From contig NC_014501.1 in the NCBI RefSeq assembly GCF_000147335.1, forward strand, positions 5,138,501-5,202,500: 64,000 bases of DNA, in the 5' to 3' direction. Shown piece by piece: positions 31,591 through 43,808 of the stretch. A program made the translations under genes and the position numbers. How positions within the stretch are numbered: the stretch's first letter is position 1; every line of letters starts with the position of its first letter. The notes under the pieces are model-generated. The model did not search any database, was not told where the DNA came from, and saw only the letters and a program-made list of their open reading frames with translations. The stretch is from Gloeothece verrucosa PCC 7822. Its GTDB lineage: Bacteria > Cyanobacteriota > Cyanobacteriia > Cyanobacteriales > Microcystaceae.

Positions 31591-33174
31591 TTACAATACT
31601 GTAGGCAGTTTAATGGCTTCGGGCGCTACATTTTCACCATTAAAGTTGATCGCTTGCTTTTCTATTGTTCTAGCTTGAACGAATTCTTGATCAAGTTGAT
31701 GCTGTTCTTTTTCGTCCATTCCTCCTAATAGATAAACTATCAGTTTAGCCGCTAGTTTTCGTCCGGCTACTTGAATGCGCTTTTTAAGAGGATCATAGAG
31801 AATGCCATACCAAAGGGAAGAGGGTTTTTCTATCTGACTAAAGCCTCCTGCCTCATCAAACTGATAGAGTTTTTCAAAAAGTGTATCTATCGGTATTTGG
31901 TTTTTAAAAACTAAAATTCCTAAAGCTTGGGCGAGGGCAATTTGACCCACAGGGCGGAAGAGGAGGTTGGCTTGTCCTTTACCTTGTTCATGACTGAAGC
32001 GGCGCAGTTGAGGGGTTTTTTTGCCTTGTGCGAGTTGGCGATAACTGGGTAAATTGGCGAGATGATCAAACAATTCGGTAAAAATCTCTAACGCTTCTTC
32101 TAATTCCTCGTCTTCGGGACGTAGGGGAATGATATGCTTTTTGTTTTTGGGTTGCCAATGGGGGTATTGATGGGATAAATATCCCTCGGACATATCTTGT
32201 AAGGCTTGCAGAGTGGTGAGAACAGTCGATTTTGAGGAGATGGTGGCACTGTCCCAGTTGACCCGAGGATGCCAGTTAGGGTCGTCTCGGTCTTTGAGTA
32301 AAGGATGATTCATGGCTATTTGTCTAGCAATGATGGCAAACCCGTCATCTTCGTTGAGGAGGGCGAGTTGTCCTTTACTGAGGATAACAGCCATGCGGTT
32401 AACATGAACAAAAATTGACCGGACTCTGCGTCTTGCTTGTTCATAAGTTTCACCACTGAGGACGGCGGGAATGAATTCAACACCGATTTTTTCTTTGGCC
32501 AGACTTTGGAGATAGGAGAGGTTTAGGTCGTAGGTTTCCATGAGGTCATCGGTGGTGATGACTTGGCCTGCCGCTTTTTTGATTTTGTTGTAGAGTTCTA
32601 AGCGCCCGGTTTTTATTAACTCCATCAGTCCTTGTATTCCCATCAGGCGGTGTTGTCCATCCAGGGCAAAAATGGAAAAGTTTTCTGAGACATCCAGGAG
32701 TCCGAGGTTTTGCTGGGGGTCTAGGGGGGTAAAGTTGACGGCAGGAATTTGGGCGCTTTTGCCGCTTCCCCAAGCTTCGGCGTTAGGGTCGTTGACCCAG
32801 TGAGGGCTAATGACGGCTAGGACTGGGGGGAATTTGTGATGTTTTCGGGTGGCTAGGTATTGGGCGAGATGGGCCTGTCTTGACCAGTCTAAGGGACGTT
32901 GTTGCAGTTGTTCGATGGTTTGGGCATCTCGGATGATGTTATTGGTTTTGGGGTCGAATTTTTGTTGAAATAAGGGCAGTTGTGAGGCGAAACAAACTCG
33001 TGCGGCTAACCATTCTAAGGTCACTGAGCCTAGGTAGGCTTCACTGGTTCCCATTTGGGTTTTTTGTACGAGGAGGCGATCACTTTTGGATAGGTAGCGG
33101 TCTAGGAGAAGGGCAAGGGCTTCTTTTTCTTGGTTTTCTCGTTGTAAGATTTGGCTGGCTAGATCGGAGTTCAT
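31591..33174 (-). CDS. DGQHR-domain protein (DndB-related), long form
   Basis: A 527-residue protein with the DGQHR signature at residues 172-176 (FALDGQHRLMGIQGL) that defines DndB and relatives, and a downstream RRRVRSIFVHVNRMAVILSKGQLALLNEDD. In the phosphorothioation system, DndB binds modified-site DNA and represses the dnd operon. This long version differs from canonical DndB (about 360 residues). It is the first of three DGQHR genes here and is divergent from dndB-like copy two, with 305 bases between carrying repeats. Confidence 0.8.
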   Translation of the reverse strand: MNSDLASQILQRENQEKEALALLLDRYLSKSDRLLVQKTQMGTSEAYLGSVTLEWLAARVCFASQLPLFQQKFDPKTNNIIRDAQTIEQLQQRPLDWSRQAHLAQYLATRKHHKFPPVLAVISPHWVNDPNAEAWGSGKSAQIPAVNFTPLDPQQNLGLLDVSENFSIFALDGQHRLMGIQGLMELIKTGRLELYNKIKKAAGQVITTDDLMETYDLNLSYLQSLAKEKIGVEFIPAVLSGETYEQARRRVRSIFVHVNRMAVILSKGQLALLNEDDGFAIIARQIAMNHPLLKDRDDPNWHPRVNWDSATISSKSTVLTTLQALQDMSEGYLSHQYPHWQPKNKKHIIPLRPEDEELEEALEIFTELFDHLANLPSYRQLAQGKKTPQLRRFSHEQGKGQANLLFRPVGQIALAQALGILVFKNQIPIDTLFEKLYQFDEAGGFSQIEKPSSLWYGILYDPLKKRIQVAGRKLAAKLIVYLLGGMDEKEQHQLDQEFVQARTIEKQAINFNGENVAPEAIKLPTVL

Positions 33175-35183: not shown

Positions 35184-36365
35184 TTAGTATTCTAGCCATC
35201 CAAGCGCTGTCTTAGCGGCATGAACAGCCATATTGACTGGGTTAACATTAGCTGATATTTTATATCGTTTAGCAGTATTCTTGGCATTGAGATCTAGTTT
35301 TATTACGTTTCCTTGCCAAAGATTGCCACTTTTTTCCCAATCTAATTCAGCTATTTTTGAAACTTTTTCAGGTGCAAAAATATTATTATCTTCGTTGTAT
35401 GTACAGTAAAGTAAACGACCTAAAATTTCTAACCCTACGCTTGTTCCAAGAAGACAGTTATCTTTAAATTTGATAATATTGTCAACAGTCAAATTTTCTA
35501 TACTGGTTTCACAAATATGTCGAGTTTGACTGCACTCAGCAAAAAATTGATTTAGACAACTAATTAAAGTTTGAGAAGCTTGTTCTACATCATAATCTTC
35601 TAGTTCATCTTGAGGATTATTGACAAAAGCACAACTCACTAATTTTGCAATATAATTAGTTGTATAAATTAATTTTTGTTTAGTGGCGGGAGAGTTTTTA
35701 ATTTTTTCAGTCTTATTAAAGAACATAAGCACTTGTTCAAGCAAATTTTTAGTAATTCCTACTCTTCCTTCAAATTCTCCAAAAGAAAGGAGTAAAGATT
35801 TGTCAAGAGCTTTGGTTTGTGCCATATCACGGAAATCTGTTTGACATTGATTAAAATTCGCTTCTAAAACAAGAGTAACGGGAAAATCATTATCTCCTAT
35901 CCATTCCGCATCAGGACTTTCAATTAAATCGTGAATAGCTTGTTTGCGATGTTGACCATCAGTAATATCTAGTTTAACTCCCCGAGGAATGACAATTAAA
36001 GCAATGCCTCTACCCATTTGAATTAACTTAATTTTTTCAGGATCAACATTTGCAGTGAGTGTCCCTAAAATCCAAGGTTTATTTTGTTTTGCTCGTTTGA
36101 GAATATATTGTTTTACCTCTTCAGCGTGCCCCTTGATCTCGGGGCGATTTTTGCCTGAATCAGGATCATTGCCTGTAGAGGGTTTAGCTTGAAGTAAAGT
36201 AGGCAAATCGTGAGCAGGAACGTTTATTTGAATCATTTTCCGTTTTCCTTGCTGACAAATTAATCCCGGATAGCATTTTTCCCTATAATACTTAGCGAAA
36301 TAGGGTTCCAGCAATTCATCAAGCCGAGGGGTATGTTCACTATCATCTTTAAATTCAGACATCAT
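35184..36365 (-). CDS. DGQHR-domain protein (DndB-related)
   Basis: A 393-residue protein with LDITDGQHRKQAI (DGQHR at 136-140) and the DndB-like FRDMAQTKALDKSLLLSFGEFEG. It would bind DNA as a regulator of the phosphorothioation genes by family analogy. It is divergent from dndC with 91 bases between start codons, the position expected for a repressor of dndC. The N-terminal 50 residues differ from the other copies (YREKCYPGLICQQGKRKMIQ). Confidence 0.85.
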   Translation of the reverse strand: MMSEFKDDSEHTPRLDELLEPYFAKYYREKCYPGLICQQGKRKMIQINVPAHDLPTLLQAKPSTGNDPDSGKNRPEIKGHAEEVKQYILKRAKQNKPWILGTLTANVDPEKIKLIQMGRGIALIVIPRGVKLDITDGQHRKQAIHDLIESPDAEWIGDNDFPVTLVLEANFNQCQTDFRDMAQTKALDKSLLLSFGEFEGRVGITKNLLEQVLMFFNKTEKIKNSPATKQKLIYTTNYIAKLVSCAFVNNPQDELEDYDVEQASQTLISCLNQFFAECSQTRHICETSIENLTVDNIIKFKDNCLLGTSVGLEILGRLLYCTYNEDNNIFAPEKVSKIAELDWEKSGNLWQGNVIKLDLNAKNTAKRYKISANVNPVNMAVHAAKTALGWLEY

Positions 36366-36456: not shown

Positions 36457-38103
36457 ATGACAACCACCCAGTCTCCACAATTTCCCTTACGTAATGTTTC
36501 CCAATTGGTAGAAGACATAGCAACATTAACTAAAGAAATTCAAGAATTGTACTGCCAGGATGATATTCCCTGGATTGTTGGTGTATCGTGGGGAAAAGAT
36601 AGCACTACCGTATTACAACTGATCTGGAATGCGATAGCGGCTCTACCTCTAGAAAAACGACATAAAACTATTCATGTCATTACTACAGATACTCTAGTAG
36701 AAAATCCGATTGTGTCTGTCTGGGTGCGTAAATCCATAAAAAAGCTTCAAAATGCTGCAATTCAGCAACAAATGCCTGTGAAACCTCATCTACTTCATCC
36801 CTCTTTAAAAGAAAGCTTTTGGGTATGTTTAATAGGAAAAGGATATCCTGCACCTCGAAATGGTTTTCGTTGGTGTACTGATCGTCTGAAAATACAGCCT
36901 GTCAACTACTTTATCCGTGATATGGTTAGAGCGCATGGTGAAACAATAGTTGTTTTAGGTATTCGTAAAGCTGAGAGTGCAACTCGTGCAGCTACAATGA
37001 AAAAGCACGAAGAGGACAGATTACGCGATCGCCTTAGTCCTAATGGTCGCCTAATTAATTCTCTAGTTTATACCCCTATTGAAGACTGGCGGACTGATGA
37101 AGTTTGGTTATATTTGATGCAGTGGGAAAACCCTTGGGGACATAGTAATAAAGAGTTATTTGCCATGTATCGGGGAGCAACAGCAGATAATGAATGTCCT
37201 TTGGTTGTAGATACTTCTACGCCTAGCTGTGGAGATTCTCGCTTTGGTTGTTGGGTTTGTACAATGGTTAGCAAAGATAAATCTATGGAGGCGATGATTC
37301 AGAATGATGAAGAAAAAGAATGGTTACAACCTCTGTTAGATATTCGCAATGAATTAGATGTACAAGATGATAAAGATAAACGGGACTTTCGTCGTATTTA
37401 CGGTAGAGTAGAACTATTTGGTAAAGAAGAAATAGAACCCATACCCGGTCCTTATACTAAATACTGGAGGGAACACTGGTTAAGACGGGTACTCCAAGCA
37501 CAAGTCGAAGTGCGAAAAAATGCCCCAGAAGACATGAAAGACATCACCCTAATAACTATGGACGAACTAAGCGAAATCCGGCAAATTTGGTTAGATCAAA
37601 AGCATGAATTTGATGATAGCTTACCGAAAATATACGAAGAAGTCACCGGCGAACCATTTAAAGATCCTCGGCGAGAACTCGAACGCCGCCTCTTAGGTGA
37701 GGATGAATGGAATGTCTTAGCGGAAATTTGCGGCGATGACGTAATGCACCTAGAATTAATGACTAAACTCCTCGATACTGAGCGGCAACATTACACAAAA
37801 ACTCGTCGCTCAAATATCTACAACGAACTGCAAAAATGCTTTGAAACCAGTTCAAGGTCCCGAGAAGATGCCATAGATAACGCACACCTGAAGCGGCATT
37901 TAAAAACCGCCGCCGCACAAGGAGACGTAGAAAGCATCAAACAGCAATTAACCAACCCCGAAAAAGAAAACGGAGATCTAAAAATCATCAAAGAAAAAAT
38001 CAAAGAGAATTTAAAAACCCCAGCCAACAATCAGCAACAATTATCATTATCTTGGGGCAACCTCAAATTTAGTAATCAACCCACAGAACCCGAAGAAGAA
38101 TAA
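36457..38103 (+). CDS. dndC: DNA phosphorothioation sulfurtransferase DndC
   Basis: DndC is an ATP-pyrophosphatase/PAPS reductase-type protein with an iron-sulfur cluster that brings sulfur to DNA. The 548-residue protein has the P-loop VGVSWGKDSTTVLQLIW (SWGKDS, residues 42-58), cysteines in NECPLV, SCGDSRFGCWVC for the cluster, and RWCTDRLKIQPV near residue 143. Length is that of DndC. It is upstream of a reverse-strand insertion (CCD and SDR genes), whereas dndD usually follows directly. Confidence 0.95.
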   Translation: MTTTQSPQFPLRNVSQLVEDIATLTKEIQELYCQDDIPWIVGVSWGKDSTTVLQLIWNAIAALPLEKRHKTIHVITTDTLVENPIVSVWVRKSIKKLQNAAIQQQMPVKPHLLHPSLKESFWVCLIGKGYPAPRNGFRWCTDRLKIQPVNYFIRDMVRAHGETIVVLGIRKAESATRAATMKKHEEDRLRDRLSPNGRLINSLVYTPIEDWRTDEVWLYLMQWENPWGHSNKELFAMYRGATADNECPLVVDTSTPSCGDSRFGCWVCTMVSKDKSMEAMIQNDEEKEWLQPLLDIRNELDVQDDKDKRDFRRIYGRVELFGKEEIEPIPGPYTKYWREHWLRRVLQAQVEVRKNAPEDMKDITLITMDELSEIRQIWLDQKHEFDDSLPKIYEEVTGEPFKDPRRELERRLLGEDEWNVLAEICGDDVMHLELMTKLLDTERQHYTKTRRSNIYNELQKCFETSSRSREDAIDNAHLKRHLKTAAAQGDVESIKQQLTNPEKENGDLKIIKEKIKENLKTPANNQQQLSLSWGNLKFSNQPTEPEEE

Positions 38104-38414: not shown

Positions 38415-39809
38415 TCAACTTTGAGGCACCCAAAGACCATGAAAACCATAAGGAACACGCTGAGGAATAAGAACCCGGGCCACCGGTTCATACTCCAAAT
38501 TCTGCGCCGCCAAAATCACCAACTCCGAAGAATCAGTAGACTGATCATAAACAAAAGTTATCAACCAACCATCATCTTCTGAACTTCCTAGAGGGTTGGG
38601 AGCAAAAACCGCCTCACCCCCATAACGACCCAAACCATACTGATAACGCCAAGAATTCCCCGTTTCTAGGTCATATTTAATGATCCCATCCCACAAAGGA
38701 AGTTCATCAGGTTTGATCGTCATGCTATAACCATAACGATTTTTACGTCCCACATAAGCCGGGTTGAGGGTAGGAAATTCTGAAGGAACATCATCTAAAA
38801 TTTCCTCTTTAACAGAATTATCCCGAAGATTAAACCGCCATCTCGTCAAAAAGGGAATATCATTTTTATTGGCCATTTCTGGGTCATTTACCATCCCTAA
38901 AACACTGGTTGCTTCCATGCGACAGGCCAGTAAAATTACCTCATCTCCCTCTTCATAAGCATTGAGAGTATGGTAAATGAAGCAAGAGTTAGTCTCAAAC
39001 CAACGTATCGAGTCCGGTTCTCCATGACGAGGAAGAATACCAAAATAACTGGGGGTATGAGATTCAAATTGAAAAGCCGCTTCTCCTTTAGCCATTTTTT
39101 CGGGACGGAAAGTAAGCGGTAAATTAGGAAATATACTGTAATGTTCAGTGATAGCAAAATCGTGCATCATCACCCCTACCGGTAACTCAATGGGTACAAG
39201 TTTACTTAATTTCCCATCGGCTGAGACAATGCCATAATGTAAGAACGGGGGAGTAATCATATTGTAGCCAATAAACATCATTTCCCCAGTGACCGGATCG
39301 ACTTTAGGATGAGCGGTAAAAGGTGTATTTAATTTACCCTCAAAGGTTTGGGAACCCACAGTATCTAAACTCGGAACATCAATTAAATAGGGTTCTCCTC
39401 CTTCCCAAAGAGACAAAAGTTGTTGATGGTGCCAAACTAAAGCGGTATTAGAAACATTTTTAAAACTCAATTCAGGTTCTAAGTCTCTTGGGCCTAATAT
39501 CCCGCCATAAAGCGCTTTTCCGGCTTGATGTTCTTTCATAAAACCGGCAGTTTTCACATAGCGGTTACGATAGGTTGCTTGAGAGTCTTTAATCTCGACT
39601 CCATGTAACATTCCATCCCCATCAAACCAATGATACATCCCCAAAGGATCAAATTGAGGGTTTGGGCCATTGCGAACGAAACTACCTCGTAATTCTGGGG
39701 GAATTTTGCCGATAACCTTTAAATTTGTACTGGTTATTTCTTGATGAACTGGGGCAAAGTTTCCCGCTAAAAAAGGACTAATCTCAGCAATTGCTGTTGG
39801 CTCTACCAT
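38415..39809 (-). CDS. Carotenoid/apocarotenoid cleavage oxygenase
   Basis: A 464-residue Fe(II)-dependent carotenoid oxygenase of the RPE65/CCD family, similar to cyanobacterial apocarotenoid-15,15'-oxygenase, which makes retinal from apocarotenals. Four iron-binding His are visible in FTAHPKVDP, MMHDFAITEHYS, IYHTLNAYEEGDE and GFHGLW near the C-terminus. Start and length are normal. It sits on the minus strand between dndC and dndD with an SDR gene 81 bases upstream, so the pair may act together. Confidence 0.92.
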   Translation of the reverse strand: MVEPTAIAEISPFLAGNFAPVHQEITSTNLKVIGKIPPELRGSFVRNGPNPQFDPLGMYHWFDGDGMLHGVEIKDSQATYRNRYVKTAGFMKEHQAGKALYGGILGPRDLEPELSFKNVSNTALVWHHQQLLSLWEGGEPYLIDVPSLDTVGSQTFEGKLNTPFTAHPKVDPVTGEMMFIGYNMITPPFLHYGIVSADGKLSKLVPIELPVGVMMHDFAITEHYSIFPNLPLTFRPEKMAKGEAAFQFESHTPSYFGILPRHGEPDSIRWFETNSCFIYHTLNAYEEGDEVILLACRMEATSVLGMVNDPEMANKNDIPFLTRWRFNLRDNSVKEEILDDVPSEFPTLNPAYVGRKNRYGYSMTIKPDELPLWDGIIKYDLETGNSWRYQYGLGRYGGEAVFAPNPLGSSEDDGWLITFVYDQSTDSSELVILAAQNLEYEPVARVLIPQRVPYGFHGLWVPQS

Positions 39810-39890: not shown

Positions 39891-40694
39891 TTAATTTCCC
39901 ACCTTGATATTTTTGACAATTTTTGATAAAATCCCAGGAAAAAATCGCTTAAGATAGACAGCAATCATTTCTTTTCTAGCAATATAAATTTCTTCCTGGT
40001 CTTTTTCAATAGCCTGAAGTATTTTTTGGGCACAGACATCTACAGAAATTCCTAACTCTTGATTTTTATCCATCTGATTATATTTAGCTCCCTCTGCGGT
40101 AAAAGCATTCAGACTAATAGAAGTTTTAACATATCCCGGACAAATCAAAGTAACTTTAATATTATCTTGCCAAACTTCGGCTCGTAACGAGTCAAAATAT
40201 CCCTGTAAAGCGTGTTTAGAAGCCGCATAAGACGAACGCATCTTTGTAGCAACTTTTCCCGCCACACTAGAGATAATAACCAGATGACCGGATTGTTGTT
40301 TTTTCATCACTGTTAATACAGATTTGCTCAGAGTGATAGCCGCAAAAAAATTGACTTCCATTATTATTCGTTCTACCTCAGAAGAGGTTTCCACTGCCAA
40401 AGATCTTTGAGTCACTCCTCCGTTATTAATTAAAATATCGACCGTACCAAATAAACTAATCGCTTCCTGTGCTAAGATTGGCAAAGTATCGGGTTGATTC
40501 AGGTCAAGCGGCAAAATTTTAATCTCATCAGGATTAATTCCCTTGCAATTGTCTTTAACTCGTTGTAATTCGTTTTCTCGTCTGGCTGATAAAATCAATT
40601 TTCCTCCCTTCTCGGCAATTTGATAAGCCAAAGCTTCGCCGATACCTGATGAAGCCCCTGTAATCCAAATAACTTTATTTTTAATTTCGCTCAT
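39891..40694 (-). CDS. Short-chain dehydrogenase/reductase
   Basis: A 267-residue classical SDR. The cofactor-binding motif is TGASSGIGEA at residues 13-22, followed by LINNGGVTQRS and the catalytic SSYAASKHALQGY (YxxxK) with Ser from VIISSVAGK. The C-terminal part contains a hydrophobic tail region that may attach to membrane. Substrate is unknown; retinal/apocarotenal is an attractive idea from the adjacent oxygenase. The ATG at 40694 is chosen because AGGAGG lies 9 bases upstream; an in-frame TTG is further upstream. Confidence 0.9.
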   Translation of the reverse strand: MSEIKNKVIWITGASSGIGEALAYQIAEKGGKLILSARRENELQRVKDNCKGINPDEIKILPLDLNQPDTLPILAQEAISLFGTVDILINNGGVTQRSLAVETSSEVERIIMEVNFFAAITLSKSVLTVMKKQQSGHLVIISSVAGKVATKMRSSYAASKHALQGYFDSLRAEVWQDNIKVTLICPGYVKTSISLNAFTAEGAKYNQMDKNQELGISVDVCAQKILQAIEKDQEEIYIARKEMIAVYLKRFFPGILSKIVKNIKVGN

Positions 40695-40799
40695 GGGGGT
40701 TTTTCCTCCTAACAAATTTTTAAAATTATTGTTTTTATTATACTTTAAATAAAAAAATATAGTATGATATAAAAATCCTTGTAAATTTAGCGATACCTA

Positions 40800-42797
40800 A
40801 TGATTTTTACCGAACTCGTCTTAGAGAACTTTGGCCCTTATGCAGGCAAACATACCATAAACCTACGACCAGAAATAGAAGAAAATACCCGCCCTATTAT
40901 CTTATTTGGCGGCATGAATGGAGGCGGAAAAACAACTCTAATGGATGCCATGCGCCTCGCCTTATATGGTTCTCGTGCCCAATGTTCTACGCGAGGAAAT
41001 TTAAGTTATAGCGACTTTTTGAGTCAAGCAGTTAATAGTCAAACCCCCCCTTATGAAAAAGCGCGAATAGAACTAGCCTTTGAACATTTTCAAGACGATG
41101 AATTACTAGAAATAAGAATTGTGCGTTACTGGGAAAAAAAACCCAAAGACGGAAAAGACCATTTAGGAATTTTAATCGGAAAATCCGATCAAGAATTAGT
41201 AGAGCCAGCCCTAGCTAATACCTGGGATGAATATATCGAAACCCTCCTGCCATTAGGAATTTCTAACCTCTTTCTTTTTGACGGAGAACAAGTCAAAGAA
41301 CTGGCAGAACAAGACATCCCCCCTCAAGCGGTAATAGAAGCCATTCAATCCCTATTAGGACTCGGGTTAGCTGAAAAATTATCCATAGACTTAGACATTT
41401 TAGTCAGTCGTAAGCGTAAAGAAATCGCCACTGGATTACAACTAAAAGACCTAGAAAAAATCGAAGAAAAATTAAAATATTATCAACAGGAATCCGAAGC
41501 CGCCAACCGAGAATTAGGCAATCTCAAAAATCAACTAGAAAGGGCTGAGAAAAAAAGAAAAGAAGCCTCAAATAAATTCCGAGTACAAGGAGGAAAAATA
41601 GCCGCTCAAAAAAACCAACTTGACCTAGAAAAAAAAGCACTAGAAAAAGCGGCAGAAGAGAGTCGAAAAGACTTGTGTCAGTTAGCGGCAGGGATCTTAC
41701 CTTTAGAATTAATAAACCCGCTTCTGCAACAAGCCAAAAACCAAGGAGAACAAGAAATCAAAATTCAACAGGCTAAAATCGCCAAAAAACTTTTACAAGA
41801 ACGAGATCAAAAGTTATTATCTTATCTATCTGAACTCGCTTTACAATCGGAAAAACTGAAAAAAATACAAAGCTTTCTCGAGCAAGAAAACCAAATTTTA
41901 AACCAAACAACAGAAGCCGATCACACCTCTTTTTTAAACCTGAATGAAGAAGAATTAAAACAATTAACAAACATTTTAGACCATCAACTTCCTCTCGAAA
42001 CAAACCAGGCTAAAAAGCAAGTTGAATTGCTCGAAAAAATCGAAACAGAAATGGAAAGCAAAGAAAAAGAATTAGCCTTAGCCGCTTCTCCCGAAGAGTA
42101 CGATAAACTAGACAAAGCCTTACAGGAAGCCGACCAAGAACTGCGAAAATGTCAAGCGGCTTATGAGGCCTGTCAACGGCGTTTTGATGAAGCCAAAAAA
42201 GGCAGCGACAAAACCAAAAAAGAACTCGAAAAATATAGCGAAGAAGCCATCGACTATCAAAACAACGAACACCTAATTAAAGCCGCCGCAAGAGCCAAAC
42301 AAACCCTACAACTATTTAAAGAAAAATTAACCCTAAAAAAATTAAATAAACTCGAAGGAGAAGTGAGCCAATGCTTTAGATATTTACTCCATAAAACCGA
42401 CCTCGTAAATCGTGTAGCCATTGATACGCAAAACTTTAGCCTTTCCCTGTACGATCCCAACGGCGAACTCATCCCTAAACATCGACTCTCAGCCGGAGAA
42501 AAACAACTCCTAGCCATAGCATTTTTATGGGGACTAGCGCGAGTATCAGGAAGAAACTTACCCGTAGCCATTGACACCCCTTTAGGAAGACTAGACTCAT
42601 CTCATCGCAGTAACTTAGTAGAACGTTATTTTCCCACAGCATCCCATCAAGTCATCCTCCTATCGACAGATACAGAAATCGGCAAAACAGAAATAGAACA
42701 ATTGAAAGAACTCGATGCAATAGCCTTGCAATATCTGCTAAAATATGACTCAACTAAACGTCAGACTACCATCGAGCCTAATCGTTACTTTTGGTAA
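40800..42797 (+). CDS. dndD: DNA phosphorothioation ATPase DndD
   Basis: DndD is an SMC/RecF-like ATPase needed for phosphorothioation. The 665-residue protein has Walker A FGGMNGGGKTTLMDAMRLAL (residues 37-56), a long central coiled coil (about 210-520, rich in Glu, Lys and Gln), the ABC signature RLSAGEKQLLAIAFLWGLA (about 561-579) and Walker B PVAIDTPLGRLDSSHR. Length is normal. It is divergent from the SDR and begins a tight operon with the GUN4-domain gene and dndE. Confidence 0.95.
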   Translation: MIFTELVLENFGPYAGKHTINLRPEIEENTRPIILFGGMNGGGKTTLMDAMRLALYGSRAQCSTRGNLSYSDFLSQAVNSQTPPYEKARIELAFEHFQDDELLEIRIVRYWEKKPKDGKDHLGILIGKSDQELVEPALANTWDEYIETLLPLGISNLFLFDGEQVKELAEQDIPPQAVIEAIQSLLGLGLAEKLSIDLDILVSRKRKEIATGLQLKDLEKIEEKLKYYQQESEAANRELGNLKNQLERAEKKRKEASNKFRVQGGKIAAQKNQLDLEKKALEKAAEESRKDLCQLAAGILPLELINPLLQQAKNQGEQEIKIQQAKIAKKLLQERDQKLLSYLSELALQSEKLKKIQSFLEQENQILNQTTEADHTSFLNLNEEELKQLTNILDHQLPLETNQAKKQVELLEKIETEMESKEKELALAASPEEYDKLDKALQEADQELRKCQAAYEACQRRFDEAKKGSDKTKKELEKYSEEAIDYQNNEHLIKAAARAKQTLQLFKEKLTLKKLNKLEGEVSQCFRYLLHKTDLVNRVAIDTQNFSLSLYDPNGELIPKHRLSAGEKQLLAIAFLWGLARVSGRNLPVAIDTPLGRLDSSHRSNLVERYFPTASHQVILLSTDTEIGKTEIEQLKELDAIALQYLLKYDSTKRQTTIEPNRYFW

Positions 42798-42816: not shown

Positions 42817-43407
42817 ATGAGTAATTCCTACAATGAAGGCCAGCAAGAACTTTCCAACCAACTAGCCGAAATAAAACTGCAATTAACCCGACTAACAGAA
42901 CTGAGTAGCCGCTTAGCATGGGTTGAAGAAACTCTATTATTAGTAGAAGACATTTATCGCTATGAAAAATTACAAAAAGCCTTATTAGAAGGAGACTGGT
43001 TTGAAGCCGACTTAGAAACCATTAAAATCATATTAGACCTAACCGGTAAAGACAAAGACAACCTGAAACCAGAAGATATTCAATACTTTCCGGTGGCATC
43101 CTTAAAAGTCATCGATAAACTGTGGCTAAAATACAGTCAAGGAAAATTTGGTTTTACCGTACAACTAAAAATTTACCAACAATTGGGAGGCAACCTAGAC
43201 ACCACCATCGCTAAAGATCAAAAACTGATTGAAAAGTGGGGCGAACAACTGGGATGGAGAGACAACCATCAATGGCGAAAATGTGATGAACTAGATTATA
43301 GTTTTAACGCGCCAACAGGTTGTCATCCTTCGCAATGGTGGAACTCGCCTTATGGATCAAAAATGACCAACTATTTTCTTGCCCGTCTGATCAAAGCTAA
43401 TCTATAA
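42817..43407 (+). CDS. GUN4-domain protein encoded between dndD and dndE
   Basis: A 196-residue protein. An N-terminal coiled-coil-like region (QQELSNQLAEIKLQLTRLTE and onward to about 45) precedes a GUN4 domain (about 50-196) with the family landmarks YEKLQKALLEGDWFEADLET, DKLWLKYSQGKFGFTVQLKI and WGEQLGWR, ending SFNAPTGCHPSQWW. GUN4 binds porphyrins in chlorophyll synthesis, and GUN4 domains also occur on bacterial signalling proteins. Spacing is 19 bases after dndD and 5 before dndE, so it is a component of the dnd operon. Its role there is unknown. Confidence 0.85.
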   Translation: MSNSYNEGQQELSNQLAEIKLQLTRLTELSSRLAWVEETLLLVEDIYRYEKLQKALLEGDWFEADLETIKIILDLTGKDKDNLKPEDIQYFPVASLKVIDKLWLKYSQGKFGFTVQLKIYQQLGGNLDTTIAKDQKLIEKWGEQLGWRDNHQWRKCDELDYSFNAPTGCHPSQWWNSPYGSKMTNYFLARLIKANL

Positions 43408-43412
43408 AAGTA

Positions 43413-43808
43413 ATGGAAAGCCCAATAGAAAGAATACATATATCTCAAACAGCCAGAGAGCAACTCATTAAACTAAAACGATATACCAAGATAGAAAACT
43501 GGAATATCTTATGTCGTTGGGCTTTTTGTCGTTCCCTAGCTGAACCGAGTATTCCCTCGCCGGTGCCTCTGCCGCCTAACAGCAATGTTGAAATGAGTTG
43601 GCAAGTCTTTGGCGGAGAAATGGCCGATGTATTGCTGATCGCCTTAAAAATGCGCTGTTACAATGATGGACTCGGAACAGATCAAGAAACATTAGCTCAT
43701 CAATTTCGTCTTCATCTCCATCGAGGAATTGGATACTTAGCTGGAGATATGACCATCAAAAAAATCGAAAATTTAATTACCATCCCTTTAAAAGAGAACC
43801 GGCAATAG
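43413..43808 (+). CDS. dndE: DNA phosphorothioation protein DndE
   Basis: DndE is a small protein that binds nicked DNA and completes the Dnd modification complex. This 131-residue copy carries the family pattern RIHISQTAREQLIKLKRYT and WNILCRWAFCRSLAEPSIP, then GGEMADVLLIALKMRC and FRLHLHRGIGYLAG. It lies 5 bases downstream of the GUN4 gene, and no restriction genes follow. Confidence 0.93.
   Translation: MESPIERIHISQTAREQLIKLKRYTKIENWNILCRWAFCRSLAEPSIPSPVPLPPNSNVEMSWQVFGGEMADVLLIALKMRCYNDGLGTDQETLAHQFRLHLHRGIGYLAGDMTIKKIENLITIPLKENRQ

Follow-up and report, generated by a model that had tools for sequence, protein, structure and literature searches.

What is a gene for a GUN4-domain protein doing between dndD and dndE in the cyanobacterium Gloeothece verrucosa PCC 7822? 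Canonical GUN4 (Ycf53-like; Synechocystis sll0558; PDB 1Y6I, 4XKB/C and 7E2T) is a regulator of Mg-chelatase. GUN4 domains also occur in cyanobacterial stress and conflict systems (VMAP ternary systems, TRADD-N), where, in the available portions of the two reports, they are described as effectors or fused domains and have been proposed to sense the status of photosynthesis (PMC7159879; PMC8195603; sensor proposal, Kaur et al., 2020, PMC7159879). The protein considered here is, in contrast, a standalone one beside dnd genes. The dnd genes serve DNA phosphorothioation, for which the available text of PMC8569181 describes a pipeline complex of IscS, DndC, DndD and DndE in the order of the genes, reports dndFGH to be absent in Cyanobacteria, and gives an antioxidant role proposed as the first use of the modification in cyanobacteria. 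In the literature searched (subscription papers mostly outside its scope), no paper joining GUN4 with phosphorothioation or DndD was found, and none of the papers on GUN4-domain gene clusters in cyanobacteria concerned dnd by title.

The GUN4 gene and its dnd locus

The locus was analysed within a window of 64,000 nucleotides (NC_014501.1, positions 5,138,501 to 5,202,500). The features that matter here are given below by their positions in the window; GUN4-a is a subfamily name coined in this analysis.

31591..33174, minus strand, second DGQHR protein, 527 aa (DGQHR in the translation)
35184..36365, minus strand, DndB-like DGQHR protein, divergent from dndC (TIGR03187, above cut-off)
36457..38103, plus strand, dndC (TIGR03183, E 1.7e-209, above cut-off)
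38415-39809, minus strand, carotenoid-cleavage-oxygenase-like gene separating dndC from dndD
39891-40715, minus strand, SDR gene separating dndC from dndD
40800..42797, plus strand, dndD (TIGR03185, E 4.5e-201, above cut-off)
42817..43407, plus strand, GUN4-a gene, 196 aa (PF05419, E 9.3e-41)
43413..43808, plus strand, dndE (TIGR03184, E 1.4e-37, above cut-off)

A sequence-only reading had recognized the protein as GUN4 from three landmark strings. All three are present in the translation of 42817-43407, and the profile search confirms the identity, scoring 139.7 bits where 29.2 is the cut-off for PF05419, the family to which canonical GUN4 belongs; the matches among solved structures and the top fold matches are likewise GUN4 entries. 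The GUN4 domain covers residues 46-179, preceded by an N-terminal helix at about residues 3-48 in a model of low overall confidence. The genome contains 15 GUN4 matches, including a separate full-length canonical GUN4 at 224 bits. A match to the defense kinase PD-T4-6 (PADLOC PDLC04062) was rejected, as it spans model positions 306-437 of 450 only and a Pfam scan found no kinase. Since the match runs through a GUN4-like stretch of that model, PD-T4-6 may be called in error where a cyanobacterium encodes a GUN4 protein.

The tight, co-directional packing described earlier is correct: dndD, the GUN4 gene and dndE all lie on the plus strand, with gaps of 19 and 5 bases. The placing of the gene within a dnd operon holds in part. 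The cluster has dndC, dndD and dndE, each above its NCBIfam cut-off, and differs from the known Dnd system in that dndC stands apart from dndDE: 2.7 kb and two opposite-strand genes lie between the end of dndC and dndD. The spacing thus supports a unit dndD–GUN4–dndE and not a whole dndBCDE operon, whose DndB-like gene is moreover divergent. That gene matches the DndB model TIGR03233 at E 2.1e-15, but below cut-off. Of the 96 dndE stretches scanned, window included, 44 contain relatives of the second DGQHR protein.

Recurrence and decay at other dnd loci

In the phylum sample, DndE was detected in 96 of 386 genomes, and the 95 loci besides that of the window were fetched, some of them cut by contig ends. 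None of these 95 loci, seven of which belong to the genus g3 described below, showed a GUN4 open reading frame in the span from about 9 kb upstream of dndE to about 6 kb downstream. In the GTDB family of the window itself, DndE occurs in 35 of 50 genomes. The dndE locus was inspected in every one of the 35 (the window, ten from the phylum sample and 24 others); GUN4 was searched across 39 genomes, those of the window and its relatives, and then in wide stretches. Two species of the genus g148 carry a GUN4 gene between dndD and dndE: Aphanothece hegewaldii CCALA 016 (L144) and a second species (L145), in which a one-base frameshift towards the end of the gene is either genuine or an error of sequencing. 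In each of the two species, the GUN4 gene starts 3 bases past the dndD stop and dndE follows about 200 bases after it, so that a spacing of 5 bases is peculiar to the window. A tblastn search with the window protein against 119 dnd loci returned L144, L145, one relic (L173) and otherwise weak matches only. A DndE search of plasmids gave 8 records.

The genus g3, which we take to be a Microcystis-like genus, retains pieces of the gene. In its dndD–dndE gap the pieces are colinear with the GUN4 gene, as judged by eye with the aid of local alignment. The N-terminal piece is present in 9/9 loci with an adjacent dndD and begins 4 bases past the dndD stop (in L175 the dndD stop codon is itself altered); some loci keep a YxNLxxSLAAAD stretch, the counterpart of YxKLQxxLxxGDWFEAD; and a C-terminal piece, xMTNYF, sits immediately before dndE. 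Gaps were aligned locally with GUN4 and scored against shuffled gaps (60 shuffles each). The z-score exceeds 5 in eight of the nine g3 loci and is 2.9 in the ninth (L060), and the highest value outside g3 in a locus without the gene is 3.4 (L160), among 56 gaps of at least 60 bases. The two g3 loci that lack an adjacent dndD have a C-terminal piece upstream of dndE (L070) or a degraded piece (L062). DndE was found in 11 of 12 g3 species, and DndC and DndD are above cut-off in all 11 genomes with dndE. The relics beside intact dndC, dndD and dndE indicate that the GUN4 gene was lost while the phosphorothioation core stayed.

These results rule out two simple descriptions of the locus. GUN4 is not unique to this strain, as L144, L145 and the g3 relics occupy the same place, and it is not general to cyanobacterial dnd clusters, as shown by the 95 other dndE loci and the tblastn search of 119 loci. 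Recurrence in unrelated genomes, which had been proposed as support for a function, did not emerge: the intact, frameshifted and relic cases all belong to one GTDB family, and the dnd-linked GUN4 proteins form one clade in the tree.

Across 76 loci (L041-L176), the length of the dndD–dndE gap lies between -47 and 972 bases. It also carries other small ORF families, of about 115, 83 and 92 aa, along with single ORFs of 220 and 174 aa, and because such families recur, the gap looks like a recurrent insertion site. Many related genomes have a gene of about 485 aa on the same strand after dndE (for example, L041, L049 and L054). DndD matches are present in 62 of the 96 dndE stretches, window included; roughly one locus in three (L041-L135) has dndE and no detected dndD in the fetched stretch, some stretches being truncated where their contig ends. 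One locus (L135, genome G385) holds a fragmented dnd cluster in which relatives of DndC, DndD and DndE appear as short ORFs.

History and selection

The three dnd-linked GUN4 proteins form one clade with support of 99/99, and the nearest tree rows after them, by path from the window protein, are GUN4 proteins of genus g150 encoded away from dnd. In the DndD tree, g148 and g3 are joined (86/80) and the window is left unplaced, so separate transfers are possible; a DndD tree in which g1, g148 and g3 are held together is not rejected (p-AU 0.272). The GUN4 tree and the relics favor a single insertion followed by loss in g3, which DndD does not prove. The GUN4 gene is under purifying selection. 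Between G393 and G394, its dN/dS is 0.071 (139 codons), below that of DndE (0.100), DndD (0.156) and DndC (0.204); relative to the window, silent sites are nearly saturated.

The GUN4-a subfamily and its binding residues

Close relatives of the window protein were aligned, and the alignment was used as the search query for GUN4-a. Members were found in 37 of 388 genomes of the order at E up to 1e-70, in 47 places and nine GTDB family codes. A search of 388 class genomes at E up to 1e-65 gave matches in 39, many of them a sister set and some ordinary paralogues. The subfamily thus ranges over nine GTDB families of its own order, other orders and one conjugative plasmid. For counts of residues, a set of 46 rows was used: the 47 order places minus G407, the second copies in G438 and G586 (not fetched wide) and L284 (which contains stops), making 43, together with L145, L185 and L188. 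The signature of the subfamily is C156 and GCHPSxWWNSPYGxKM. Among the 46 rows, C156 is conserved in 43, C169 in 40, H170 in 37, N176 in 42 and W174/W175 in 44. The window protein groups with GUN4-a and carries C156, C169, H170 and WWNSP.

The residues for which canonical GUN4 is known are partly replaced. F196 and R214 have been named for porphyrin binding in the available part of PMC8967248, and LxNxLR is a bilin motif whose Asn contacts the bilin, according to the accessible text of PMC10156173. The earlier proposal to compare residues of the porphyrin pocket was taken up by alignment: in both alignments the position of Synechocystis Phe196 is Leu159 in the window protein, and Leu stands there in 44/46 GUN4-a rows. 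At the LxNxLR site, the ungapped alignment places SQWWNS, with none of the four residues kept; a two-residue gap introduced by MAFFT keeps one of four, the Asn on N176, in an alignment that is uncertain past residue 171. The position of W192, which presumably lines the pocket, is C156 in the alignment. With Phe196 replaced and LxNxLR not whole, canonical porphyrin or bilin binding should not be assumed. Judged from the alignment, the bilin Asn may survive as N176, and the protein may bind a tetrapyrrole. An AlphaFold model built on a 5-row alignment has a pLDDT of 62, falling under 50 for residues 112-141 and 143-172, and a Foldseek search with it returned GUN4 in all of the top 14 rows at weak scores (best E 2.6e-3). 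The pocket region of the model being unusable, no claim about the pocket rests on structure.

The window protein therefore stands apart from canonical GUN4 in its Leu at Phe196, its incomplete LxNxLR, C156 and GCHPSxWWNSPYG. It shares the lack of an intact LxNxLR with the sll1380-type paralogues, as far as these are described in the available part of PMC10156173; according to that paper no paralogue keeps the Asn of the motif, whereas N176 of GUN4-a may keep it. GUN4-a separates from the sampled standalone paralogues in the tree (98/92, one row misplaced; sll1380 is not in the tree) and differs from them in its recurrent RND, RR-TrxR or dnd neighbors.

Genomic partners of GUN4-a

Partners were counted at 45 loci (the order set, the plasmid and the family loci, with the window left out) and at 12 loci of other orders. 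The class search listed 40 places, 30 with loci, of which 27 were new and 26 were counted; L313, a paralogue of family f1, was left out. Genes for an RND permease or adaptor lie within 1.6 kb of GUN4-a at 10/45 and 7/12 loci, 17/57 in total, a count mildly biased by the two RND-linked members in the search alignment (A3); two of the 17 (L285 and L297) have their RND gene on the other strand. A fusion of a response regulator with a thioredoxin-reductase-like protein (RR-TrxR) lies within the same distance at 12/45 and 0/12 loci, 12/57 in total. One or the other is present at 29/57 loci and neither at 28/57. Neither RND nor RR-TrxR was found near any of 14 standalone paralogues or 95 dndE loci, nor in any of three draws of 77 random anchors each.

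On pREC2, a conjugative plasmid of Acaryochloris marina, the GUN4-a gene is flanked by the genes for an RND adaptor and an RND permease; G582 and four genomes of family f26 (L293, L294, L295 and L299) have it in the same setting. A permease of the MacB type and a luciferase-like monooxygenase (LLM) are encoded upstream at L270 and L272; in E. coli, MacAB-TolC exports protoporphyrin (PMC4263509, available portion). In the literature searched, a query for GUN4 with RND efflux in cyanobacteria returned only a paper on another subject. In f26, the standalone GUN4 proteins that make up a sister set (L300-L312 and L314) have RND genes adjoining in 14/14 cases. No dnd partners beyond the window, L144 and L145 were found among the GUN4-a loci examined.

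The role of GUN4 at the dnd locus

The account that we favor, with somewhat better than even confidence, is that GUN4-a is a companion of stress operons that was recruited once into dndDE, where it is selected for and dispensable for phosphorothioation. It starts from what was observed: homology, position, the single GUN4 clade, the relics, selection, the partner statistics and, by alignment, the replacement of Phe196. One GUN4-a copy would have been inserted directly behind dndD in some ancestor belonging to this family of cyanobacteria. This species and a second genus would then have kept it in a dndD–GUN4–dndE array under purifying selection, and in the Microcystis-like genus it would have decayed with dndC, dndD and dndE intact. 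The product, apparently a soluble non-canonical GUN4 paralogue, is presumably co-transcribed with dndDE. It may bind a ligand other than the usual one, either a derivative of a tetrapyrrole or some other toxic amphiphile; alternatively, its conserved Cys and His could form a redox or metal site. Either way, it would add a stress function alongside phosphorothioation and not be part of the sulfur-insertion machinery. The antioxidant role of phosphorothioation in the available text of PMC8569181 would fit a redox companion.

The strong selection on the gene could, on the other hand, reflect a tighter role in phosphorothioation than a companion would have. A lineage-specific Dnd regulator, binding to DndD, DndE or both and adjusting phosphorothioation in response to light, tetrapyrrole or redox state, would fit the location between the two genes, its retention in two genera and a dN/dS under that of the dnd genes, and the pipeline in the accessible part of PMC8569181 keeps a regulator of the DndD–DndE step possible. 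We nevertheless consider such a regulator unlikely, since g3 retains dndCDE without GUN4, none of the 95 other dndE loci has the gene, the nearest relatives outside the dnd clade sit in other operons and Phe196 is replaced. The same loci and the same decay weaken the suggestion of the sequence-only reading that the protein is a new Dnd accessory factor, at least as an obligate or general one. Its other suggestion, sensing of light or tetrapyrrole or of redox state, divides: the pocket residues argue against a canonical sensor, and the redox or stress part gains indirect support because relatives adjoin thioredoxin-reductase-like and RND genes. A bolder proposal, which we regard as doubtful, would make GUN4-a an undescribed class of operon-resident sensor or chaperone in stress operons (RND/MacB export, RR-TrxR, ABM monooxygenase), acting at dnd as a subunit of the DndD–DndE step that renders phosphorothioation redox- or tetrapyrrole-responsive through Cys/His and perhaps the Asn.

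The gene might instead be a passenger, mobile single-gene cargo that enters operons for expression and has no functional tie to phosphorothioation. Its partners do vary by lineage (RND, RR-TrxR, ABM, MacB/LLM, dnd), one copy travels on a conjugative plasmid, the g3 copies have decayed and the dndD–dndE gap hosts other small ORF families; but the partners are non-random, with RND and RR-TrxR recurring against zero in controls, and the gene is under purifying selection, which makes a pure passenger quite improbable. Least probable is a canonical GUN4-type porphyrin or bilin sensor reused at the dnd locus with ligand binding intact: the domain profile, the 14 top fold matches (at weak scores), N176 on the bilin-contacting Asn in the MAFFT alignment and the proposed sensing of photosynthesis status (PMC7159879, available part) speak for it, but Leu159 and Cys156 replace Phe196 and W192, LxNxLR keeps no residue ungapped and one with the gap, and the genome has its canonical GUN4 elsewhere.

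Significance

The location of a gene inside a dnd operon does not alone make it a Dnd factor, and this locus serves as a warning in that respect. Beyond it, no description of the GUN4-a branch was found in the literature searched, and its association with operons for efflux and redox functions, set against clean controls, offers testable functions for GUN4 paralogues. The dnd operon can be seen gaining and losing an extra gene, in intact, frameshifted and relic states within one family. This series amounts to a natural experiment that asks whether phosphorothioation and photosynthetic stress can become linked.
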